A stretch of 64,000 bases of DNA. Origin: Haliea sp. Lineage in GTDB: Bacteria; Pseudomonadota; Gammaproteobacteria; Pseudomonadales; Halieaceae. The notes beneath the pieces are model-generated. The model saw nothing but the letters and a program-made list of their open reading frames with translations. It was not told the origin of the DNA and did no database searches. This document shows, one piece after another, positions 1,056 through 3,666 of this stretch (position 1 is the first letter of the stretch; the number at the start of each line of letters is the position of its first letter). The position numbers and the translations under genes were made by a program. The stretch covers positions 1-64,000 of the forward strand of contig JAHEBL010000003.1 in NCBI GenBank assembly GCA_024642265.1, given 5' to 3'.

Positions 1056-1352
1056 TCACAGCCCCATCTGCAAGCCCAGGTTAACGCGCTCTCGCAGTTC
1101 TTTCCCGGGCTTGAAGTGCGGGACATACTTGCCGGTCAGCTCTACGGAATCGCCGGTCTTGGGGTTGCGGCCGCGACGCGGTTCGCGAAAATGCAGGGAA
1201 AAACTTCCAAATCCCCGGATCTCGATACGCTCGCCCGAGGCAAGCGCCTGGGACATATGCTCGAGTACGGTCTTCACCGCGAGCTCCACGTCCTTGGAGG
1301 ACAACTGTGTCTGCCTGGCCGCGATGGCCTCTATCAACTCACTTTTTGTCAC
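1056..1352 (-). CDS. ihfB: Integration host factor subunit beta
   Basis: A 98-residue HU/IHF-fold protein starting with GTG and preceded by a strong Shine-Dalgarno (AAGGAGG). It carries the family signature [21 protein letters not shown] (beta arms, about residues 47-67), including the Asn-Pro pair that intercalates into DNA. IHF-beta pairs with IHF-alpha to bend DNA at specific sites in promoters, origins and recombination sites. The position rpsA-ihfB-lapA is conserved in gammaproteobacteria and separates this protein from HU. The 637-bp gap to rpsA and the leader inverted repeat at 1365-1418 suggest its own promoter. Confidence 0.95.
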
Positions 1353-1418: not shown

Positions 1419-1485
1419 AGTTATTTTCGCAAGTTGTTATTTTTTAACGAAAAAGTGGATTTATGGGGCATATCCTGCGCCGGCA

Positions 1486-1592
1486 CGTGTCCAGACTCTG
1501 TGCCTTCTGAACACGCCGTAAATACGTCCATGTAGGCTCGTGTCGGCCCTCCATGGCCTCCAACGGTACAGAAGGCACAGAGTCTGGACACG
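1486..1592 (-). repeat. Intergenic stem-loop repeat, copy A
   Basis: Two 24-bp arms, CGTGTCCAGACTCTGTGCCT... at 1486-1509 and its exact reverse complement at 1569-1592, enclose a 59-bp loop. The loop holds a 45-bp core (1523-1567) that is the reverse complement of the core of copy B with only two differences. Similarity continues, more weakly, to 1510. The arms have no similarity to the arms of copy B. No ORF, transposase or target duplication is visible. The function is unknown; it could be a MITE-like element, a transcript-stabilising stem or a protein-binding site. Confidence 0.8.
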
Positions 1593-1697
1593 CGCCTGAC
1601 ATCGCGCACAAGAAAATTAAGGAACTGCAAATACTCTAAGGCGCCTGCCAGATCAAAACTCGCTCGAGCTAGCGACACCCACGGCAGAGCAGCGGGT

Positions 1698-1794
1698 GTT
1701 GGGTATGCATGGGCAGGACCGTTGGAGGCCATGGATGGCCGACACGAGCCTACATGGATGTACTTGCAGCGTGTCCTGCGCATGCATACCCAAC
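1698..1794 (+). repeat. Intergenic stem-loop repeat, copy B
   Basis: Arms GTTGGGTATGCATGGGCAGG... (1698-1719) and its reverse complement (1773-1794) are 22 bp with one mismatch. The enclosed core (1719-1763) matches the reverse complement of copy A at 43 of 45 positions. Inside the core are two small palindromes with the same centre, GGCCAT-GG-ATGGCC (1727-1740) and TACAT-GG-ATGTA (1751-1762). The same design with different arm sequence suggests that the folded shape, not the arm sequence, is kept. Confidence 0.8.
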
Positions 1795-1922
1795 GGCCGT
1801 TGCGTTTGGCCAGGAACGAACCAGGCAAAGAGAATCAGGAGAGGGCCGCAGCCATGGAGCGAGGCAATCCCCGCCCTCCACCGCGAATGGAACAGTACGT
1901 TCGACTTTACTATCGGACAGGC

Positions 1923-1989: not shown

Positions 1990-3666
1990 TTACTTTTCGG
2001 CCATCTGGGCCTTGATGAGGTCGCCGATAGTACCCGGGGACGCAGATTCAACCTCCTGGTCCTTGAGTGACTTCACAGCTTCCTGCTCATCTTCGTAGTC
2101 CTTGGCCTTGATAGAAAGGCCCAGGCCGCGGTTCTTGCGGTCAACGGAGATGATCTTGGCTTCAACACTGTCGCCAACCTTGAACATGCTGCGGGCGTCT
2201 TCCACCTTGTCGCGGCTGATGTCAGAGGCTTTCAGTACGCCCTCGACTTCTTCCGCCAGCTTGATGATCACGGACTTGGCATCAACCTCGGTGACTTCAC
2301 CGGTCACGATGGAACCGCGATCGTTCTCGGCCACGTAGTTGCCGAAGGGGTCGTCTTCCAGCTGCTTGATACCCAGGGAGATACGCTCACGCTCAGGGTC
2401 GATAGACAGGATGACGGTTTCGATCTCGTCGCCCTTCTTGTAGTTGCGAACCGCCTCTTCACCGGTTTCGTTCCAGCTGATGTCAGACAGGTGCACCAGA
2501 CCGTCGATGTTGCCTTCCAGTCCGATGAAGATACCGAAGTCAGTGATTGACTTGATGTTGCCGGAAATCTTCGCGCCCTTGGCATAACGTGACGCAAAGG
2601 CGTCCCAGGGGTTCTGCTGGCACTGCTTGATACCCAGCGAGATGCGGCGACGCTCCTCGTCGATATCCAGCACCATCACCTCTACCTCGTCGCCCAGCTG
2701 GACGATCTTGGAGGGGTGTACGTTCTTGTTGGTCCAGTCCATTTCAGACACGTGCACCAGGCCTTCAACACCCTCTTCCAGCTCGGCAAAACAGCCGTAG
2801 TCGGTGAGGTTGGTGATACGGGCCTTGACGCGGCTGCCCTCGGGGTAGCGACCGGTAATGGCGACCCAGGGATCCTCGCCCAGTTGCTTCAGGCCGAGCG
2901 ATACGCGGTTGCGCTCGCGGTCGAACTTGAGGATCTTGACGTCGATTTCCTGGCCGACTTCCACGATCTCGGAGGGATGCTTGATACGCTTCCAGGCCAT
3001 GTCGGTAATGTGCAGCAGGCCATCCACGCCGCCCAGGTCCACAAACGCGCCGTAGTCGGTCAGGTTCTTCACCACGCCCTTCACGGACATGCCTTCCTGC
3101 AGCGACTCCAGCAGTGCGTCGCGCTCTACGCTGTTGGCTTCTTCCATCACAGCGCGGCGTGAAACCACCACGTTGTTGCGCTTCTGGTCCAGCTTGATAA
3201 CCTTGAATTCGAGTTCCTTGCCTTCCAGGTGCACGGTCTCGCGCACCGGACGCACGTCCACCAGAGAGCCGGGCAGGAACGCGCGAATAGTGTTGATGTC
3301 GACGGTAAAGCCACCCTTGACCTTGCCGTTGATAACACCCTTGACCATCTCGTCCGCCTCGTGAGCAGCCTCGAGCTCCTTCCACGCCTCGGAACGCTTG
3401 GCCTTCTCGCGGGACAGCTTGGTCTCGCCGAAACCGTCTTCCACGGTTTCCAGCGCCACCTGAACTTCGTCACCGATGCTCAGCGTGCATTCGCCGCTGG
3501 CGTCGACGAACTGGGCACGGGGGATAACACCTTCGGACTTGAGGCCCGCATGGACGGTGACCCACTCGTTGTCGATGTCGATAACTACACCCGTGACGAT
3601 GGCGCCGGGTTGCATATCGACGGTTTTCAGACTCTCTTCAAAAAGTTCGGCGAAAGATTCGCTCAT
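1990..3666 (-). CDS. rpsA: 30S ribosomal protein S1
   Basis: A 558-residue protein made of six S1 (OB-fold) RNA-binding domains, roughly residues 20-86, 104-170, 190-260, 275-345, 362-432 and 449-518. The later repeats carry the typical tails such as [11 protein letters not shown] and [11 protein letters not shown]1 binds the 30S subunit through its first domains and mRNA through the others, and lets structured leaders be translated. Length and domain count match the gammaproteobacterial protein. It follows cmk, as in most proteobacteria, with a 154-bp gap that probably holds the promoter and autoregulatory leader, and ends at a strong terminator. Confidence 0.98.

Follow-up and report, generated by a model that had tools for sequence, protein, structure and literature searches.

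We found that a gap between two genes of Haliea sp. holds two inverted copies of a mobile repeat of Gammaproteobacteria, and that the folding of one strand of this repeat is constrained. On balance, the repeat is probably a non-autonomous element whose single-stranded form is a dual CsrA-type hairpin. The family is widespread, has no Rfam match and, as far as we found, is apparently undescribed in the open-access literature that we searched, where no published description appeared and where subscription journals lie mostly outside the coverage.

The window is the whole stretch of DNA that was analyzed, 64,000 nucleotides of contig JAHEBL010000003.1. A sequence-only reading had noticed an intergenic inverted pair of near-identical cores. 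The neighboring genes are rpsA and an IHF/HU family gene, which we take to be ihfB from its position after rpsA. The pair is real: the reverse complement of 1718-1774 agrees with 1511-1567 at 52 of 57 positions. The first core had been placed correctly at 1523-1567, and the second lies one base away from where it had been put; 1523-1567 pairs with 1718-1762 with two mismatches (counted by eye), whereas a literal comparison with 1719-1763 matches at 11 of 45 positions. The listed open reading frames across the repeat region are short overlaps only. The element itself is larger than the 45-bp core that had been proposed, namely a 115-nt, T-shaped unit with copy-specific complementary arms. We call 'sense' the strand that carries GGA in the hairpin loops, and the features of the region are as follows.

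1056..1352, minus strand: flanking gene for an IHF/HU family protein
1482..1596, sense strand minus: unit 1, 115 nt, with 31-nt arms, a three-way junction and two GGA hairpins
1482..1512, minus strand: unit 1 arm, 3′ side in sense, 29/31 complementary to the other arm
1513..1565, minus strand: unit 1 core between the arms, 53 nt
1523..1534, minus strand: unit 1 hairpin A, sense TAC(ATGGAC)GTA
1545..1558, minus strand: unit 1 hairpin B, sense GGCC(ATGGAG)GGCC
1566..1596, minus strand: unit 1 arm, 5′ side in sense, pairing with 1482..1512
1597..1688, no strand: interior between units 1 and 2, 92 nt, with no resemblance to other interiors by eye
1689..1803, sense strand plus: unit 2, 115 nt, with 31-nt arms, a three-way junction and two GGA hairpins
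1689..1719, plus strand: unit 2 arm, 5′ side, 27/31 complementary to the other arm
1720..1772, plus strand: unit 2 core between the arms, 53 nt
1727..1740, plus strand: unit 2 hairpin B, GGCC(ATGGAT)GGCC
1751..1762, plus strand: unit 2 hairpin A, TAC(ATGGAT)GTA
1773..1803, plus strand: unit 2 arm, 3′ side, pairing with 1689..1719
1990..3666, minus strand: flanking gene rpsA (ribosomal protein S1), with six S1 stretches

Because unit 1 has its sense strand on the minus strand and unit 2 on the plus strand, the sense strands of the pair are directed outward. The two units are identical at 54 of 61 middle positions, and their arms are unrelated (identity 11/27 and 9/27). Both units, on both strands, fold beyond chance (z from -5.3 to -10.5; none of 200 shuffles as good), and in both the sense strand folds better than the antisense strand (-79.3 versus -70.9 kcal/mol, and -79.9 versus -59.3 kcal/mol). 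In two relatives, G002 and G010 (L063, L069), the rpsA-ihfB gap is occupied by different hairpins with long stems, whose sequences look unrelated by eye and which may represent additional families of structured repeats.

In the sense direction, a unit consists of a 5′ arm ending in GGAC, then CGT, hairpin B, CGAGC, hairpin A, TTYACGGCG[T/A] or a variant of it, and GTCC, which opens the 3′ arm. The arms form a 31-bp stem that is topped by a three-way junction with the two short hairpins, giving the T shape. When 15 regions of the unit's own genome were compared, copy-specific arms lay flush on the core in 10, an offset inverted repeat was present in one and none reached the threshold in four. 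We quantified arm pairing with 111 model matches from two Parahaliea-like genomes, in an alignment fitted to the same structure, which favors the resulting figures: both sides change in 36 of 38 pairs, paired cells make up 90.4%, a share that drops to 36-45% if one partner is shifted by 1-3 columns, and the covariation score is 0.715 versus at most 0.121 after shifting. Across 127 non-redundant units, pairing (including G·U) reaches 91-100% at arm positions 10-23 and is weaker at positions 8-9, 24-25 and the outermost four. The stem requires pairing more than any particular sequence.

Evidence on how the arms change is restricted to alignable copies of one and the same insertion (31 pairs, several within one genome, with five L228 rows ignored for an apparent one-base register shift). 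In the insertion common to Marinobacter sp. ATCH36 and M. denitrificans, 25 of 31 arm pairs are unchanged, and the rest comprise three two-sided compensating changes, two one-sided changes that keep pairing and one break. The insertion common to M. orientalis and M. vulgaris has diverged further, with 9 of 31 pairs unchanged, 16 changed on both sides with pairing kept, three broken and three unpaired in both. Orthologous loci with different arms were dropped as a sign of arm turnover in situ, since independent insertion into the same gap also occurs. Some units carry insertions of about 12-16 nt in hairpin B or at the base, of two recurring sequence types (L050 1146-1272 and 3226-3352; L007 386-500; L014 1304-1417).

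The imperfect pairs within the arms distinguish the two strands. Using 127 non-redundant units, which remained from 208 after off-register and redundant ones were dropped and for which the search score treats G·U and A·C alike, we found that G·U outnumbers A·C on the sense strand by 171:20 at arm positions 5-31 and by 207:43 over all 31 positions (p about 4e-31 for an even split, with related copies not independent). An earlier set of 50 units, kept from 75 candidates after spurious, truncated and odd-length ones were dropped and chosen by a score that penalizes A·C more, had G·U 96 versus A·C 14, and purine-purine mismatches outnumbered pyrimidine-pyrimidine ones by 83 to 11. Mutation and hairpin-templated repair are expected to act symmetrically on the strands, and the G·U excess is not symmetric; this points to a constraint on the sense strand in its folded state, whether that is RNA or single-stranded DNA. 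These counts support constrained folding of one strand, the sense strand.

The loops of the two hairpins are near-invariant as ANGGAN. Among 180 distinct model hits, a few of which are reverse-strand echoes, the loop contains GGA in 173 of 180 for hairpin B and 176 of 180 for hairpin A, in a search whose model seeds all bore GGA and which therefore favors GGA among its hits; an earlier count, in which hairpin B lay outside the search anchor, found GGA in 120 of 126. Hexaloops account for 315 of 360 loops, and 24 of the hairpin B loops are pentaloops. Within the 315 hexaloops, the conserved positions are A1 (313), G3 (314), G4 (310) and A5 (315), while positions 2 and 6 accept all four bases. 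The closing pair is C-G in 156/159 and 175/177 cases where both letters are present among the 180 units, and in all 98 and 110 cells of the 111-unit alignment, where the next pairs covary. Of 126 units examined, 123 allowed the distance from GGA to GGA to be measured, and in 113 of these it is 23 or 24 nt.

A Csr/Rsm site of high affinity is defined as an ANGGAX hexaloop seated immediately on a stem, where N and X may vary (PMC4005645), and the consensus selected for CsrA by SELEX is RUACARGGAUGU (PMC4844966). The units have this A(N)GGAX hexaloop on a stem, as found in Csr/Rsm-binding RNA. The CsrA reading is favored because, in each of the two hairpins, the loop positions that are constrained and those that vary are the same as in the CsrA consensus, and we infer from this agreement that the units may bind CsrA as RNA. 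Binding of CsrA to a DNA hairpin whose loop contains GGA has also been reported (cited in PMC4005645), so that the loop alone is no proof of RNA. The junction (CGAGC, GCG[T/A]GTCC) is more conserved than CsrA binding needs, and another specific factor may read it.

The distribution of csrA itself is uninformative as a correlate, as the gene shows no correspondence with the units: 35 of 38 relatives gave a csrA match, some of them free of units, and a match was absent from G002 (10 units, assembly about 90% complete) and G012 (1 unit, 66% complete). Replacement of RsmZ by the units was likewise set aside, because RF00166 matched 0 of 38 genomes, with or without units, and says nothing.

The repeat is abundant well beyond the window. 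A 71-base query over unit 1 gave 18 matches at E<=0.001 in its own genome, and a covariance model (R1) built on 18 units gave 22 matches there at E<=0.01. Units recognized by R1 are present in 25 of 38 relatives and in at least 71 of 369 Gammaproteobacteria (E<=1e-4, a lower bound with 11 candidates scored per genome). The expectation that the core would recur in this genome and its relatives is thereby borne out, and so is the proposal of an element family, by the many copies and by the fixed polarity of adjacent units, although the 45-bp core was too small a definition of it. An exact 32-nt core pattern occurs in at least 117 stretches, from Halieaceae, Marinobacter, Marinimicrobium, Agaribacterium, Aquisalimonas and Halopseudomonas to Stenotrophomonas nematodicola, Lysobacter, Vulcaniibacterium and others, and the junction sequence is conserved across orders. 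Copy number varies steeply even within a genus, one of which has three genomes with 104, 65 and 2 model matches.

Rfam contains no family that reaches its gathering score in the window; over the units, it yields sub-threshold matches to microRNA precursors only, and beyond them a weak sub-threshold rsmX match at 1927-1990. Carriage by plasmids or phages was rejected, as neither collection of records matched unit 2. The core does appear in one viral contig, an IMG/VR contig of 54 kb (unit at L260 6202-6305), where it is either a prophage edge or a real phage-borne copy. One unit lies in a contig labelled as a Klebsiella pneumoniae MAG (L254), possibly through a binning or labelling error.

Adjacent units obey a nearly fixed polarity. 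Among units at most 700 bp apart, 46 of 53 pairs are minus-plus, or 47 of 55 when two weak hits are added (L006 would add a minus-plus pair and L044 a plus-plus pair); this set comprises 71 of 77 and 129 of 133 rows, once echoes on the reverse strand, two duplicated rows, two that were cut off or partial and the two weak hits had been removed. The units are thus inverted doublets and, by simple ORF calling only, intergenic, as had been suggested. In the 104- and 65-unit congeners, all 55 adjacent pairs among 149 of 169 hits are minus-plus, and 18 of the 55 have interiors of 60-66 nt; composite interiors span about 30-340 nt overall. Many of the composites listed combine, by eye, two units of two different core classes, as left and right ends would. 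Direct-tandem units, against the polarity rule, occur in L048 (G034) and in L152 (Stenotrophomonas nematodicola).

At the 110 ends of 55 composites from two Parahaliea-like genomes, a weak consensus, GGGACTTCGTAGCCC, runs through the outermost 15 nt, and CTTCG or CTCCG is found in 45 of these ends versus 7.7 expected. There is no clear target-site duplication (the best-scoring offset gives 3 of 55 at length 4), and in the insertion-site comparisons the junctions are not resolvable to a single base. One MAG, CSMAG_2835 (JAUXCW contigs, within L150-L257), contains a burst of closely related single units with common arms; by eye, these sit in an inverted terminus AATGGCACTTACTTAAGC...GCTTAAGTAAGTGCCATT, and many of the contigs end near a unit. 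Judging from this terminus, the unit may be carried by transposases of more than one kind.

Comparison of matching gaps supports the repeat's mobility. Across relatives we compared a gap that we recognized by eye and take to be rplT-pheS, in which 86 of 100 family members were matched and units were present in 11 of 30 loci examined. Within one genus, three genomes have an empty gap, two have a common insertion and one has an independent insertion with another orientation and other arms. A unit pair of Parahaliea maris (species name inferred) is missing from the matching gap of both congeners.

The units appear to be indifferent to the direction of neighboring genes. The flanking gene orientation of 38 classable pairs out of 46 is random (12 divergent, 17 tandem and 9 convergent), and so is that of single units (79 of 92 classable, by simple ORF calling). 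UTR elements tied to gene direction were rejected on these counts; random orientation is what is expected for a selfish element rather than a UTR element. Intrinsic terminators were rejected because the stems have no T-run after the unit. Independent sRNA genes with a fixed start were rejected as well, since the 24 nt before 127 non-redundant units contain no -10-like conserved base and some interiors are merely 31-39 nt long.

How would such an element act? On the reading that we favor, the 115-nt sense unit would fold into a 31-bp stem with a three-way junction and two C(ANGGAN)G hairpins. One CsrA dimer bridges two nearby sites. Transcription in the sense direction would turn the unit into an RNA module on which a single CsrA/Rsm dimer may hold both hairpins. 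With the sense strands of a pair facing outward, a transcript reading into the pair from either flank would contain one unit in sense. CsrA would then be tethered or titrated by the dozens of copies, or transcripts reaching a copy would be marked by it. Weighing against this reading are the lack of a promoter or terminator signal, the random orientation, the poor correspondence with csrA and the strongly conserved junction. A stronger form of this proposal, which we put forward tentatively, is that the units are self-spreading chromosomal elements across Gammaproteobacteria whose single conserved product would be a dual-site CsrA-binding RNA, embedding them in the Csr/Rsm network, where CsrA would serve them as a host factor in transposition or be the target of a distributed, copy-number-tunable sponge.

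The main rival holds that the units are the ends of a miniature transposon, recognized as folded single-stranded DNA by some nuclease, somewhat as the terminal repeats of parvoviruses or the hairpins of IS200/IS605 and REP are, with the CsrA-like loops either coincidental or a site for a host factor. The fixed outward polarity suits such ends, as do the two core classes seen by eye in many of the listed composites, the weak terminal consensus at 110 ends without a clear target duplication, the position of the sense fold toward the 3′ end of either strand, the conservation of the junction across orders and the bursts of copies. The enzymes searched for point the other way: five relatives that each carry 21-35 units (G006, G011, G017, G020, G024) gave no hit to the Y1 transposase family (PF01797) at E<=0.001. 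A Y1 match is present in 20 of 38 genomes, and 20 Y1 loci of about 3 kb each contain 0 units at E<=0.1. No known mobile element with a transposase was found by these searches or in the ORFs of three multi-unit loci, none of which appeared transposase-like by eye, so that no parent transposon emerged. A gene carried between units was also considered and rejected; two units 2 kb apart in L050 enclose metabolic-looking ORFs (by eye), which gives no sign of an autonomous element. The loops also count against the rival, since their variable positions 2 and 6 and their almost constant C-G closing pair fit the CsrA consensus closely. We regard the single-stranded DNA end as a serious but rather unlikely account when taken in place of the CsrA reading, and both could be true together.

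It is improbable that the arms are maintained by hairpin-templated repair or gene conversion instead of selection, leaving the units as neutral debris. The insertion common to M. orientalis and M. vulgaris has a conversion-like look, in that adjoining arm positions changed as a block along with parts of the core, yet both processes should be strand-symmetric and the 207 G·U versus 43 A·C over all positions are not. A REP/REPIN-type element moved by a RAYT, which would share the intergenic, paired, inverted and many-copy arrangement and the single-strand hairpins, is very improbable given the five PF01797-negative genomes, the unit-free Y1 loci, the 115-nt units with variable arms and the sequence upstream of the foot, where the 24 nt preceding each of 127 non-redundant units hold no conserved tetranucleotide such as the GTAG/GTGG of REP hairpins (a GTAG suspected there by eye was gone in this set), and RAYT-driven REPINs are rejected for at least five genomes, barring a RAYT too divergent for PF01797.

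If the CsrA reading is true, the copy number of a mobile repeat, which ranges from 2 to 104 units within one genus, could rewire global post-transcriptional regulation, and jumping DNA may seed genomes with protein-binding RNA sites. If the DNA reading is true, the units would be the structured, T-shaped ends of a transposition system for which no enzyme is known. On either reading, the family is widespread, and its variable arms record selection on base pairing that is almost free of sequence.

Several known systems share parts of this architecture. The inverted terminal repeats of AAV and other parvoviruses fold into a T with a long stem and two small hairpins, and stand inverted at both ends. 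The units resemble them in shape only; unlike them, the units are repeated in bacterial chromosomes, enclose interiors of about 30-340 nt and have no replication gene. MITEs are short, non-coding and inverted at their termini, and arise in bursts of copies. The units are likewise short and non-coding and come in copy bursts. The inverted consensus at their ends is weak (in two Parahaliea-like genomes), and they have no clear target-site duplication, no parent transposon in the three loci read, and ends that are three-way junctions under single-strand constraint.

REPINs are short non-autonomous inverted hairpin doublets, randomly placed in extragenic space with many per genome, and REP singlets also occur (PMC3116915, PMC6006769). 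The repeat shares with them the inverted intergenic hairpin doublets in many copies per genome; REP hairpins are 21-65 nt long with a GTAG-type foot and have a RAYT, whereas the units are 115 nt long with a copy-specific 31-bp stem, a three-way junction and two GGA hairpins, and five unit-rich genomes are without a Y1 match. The CsrA-related sRNAs CsrR1 and CsrR2 of Alcanivorax are described as having more GGA sites and few copies (PMC9788540). The sponge RNAs of the CsrB/RsmZ type share with the units the ANGGAX hexaloops placed directly on a stem and more than one site per RNA (PMC4005645). The units differ from these sponges in that no promoter or terminator of their own was seen and no Rfam family matched, and in that they carry two sites only, held inside a long enclosing stem and dispersed as tens of mobile copies per genome.
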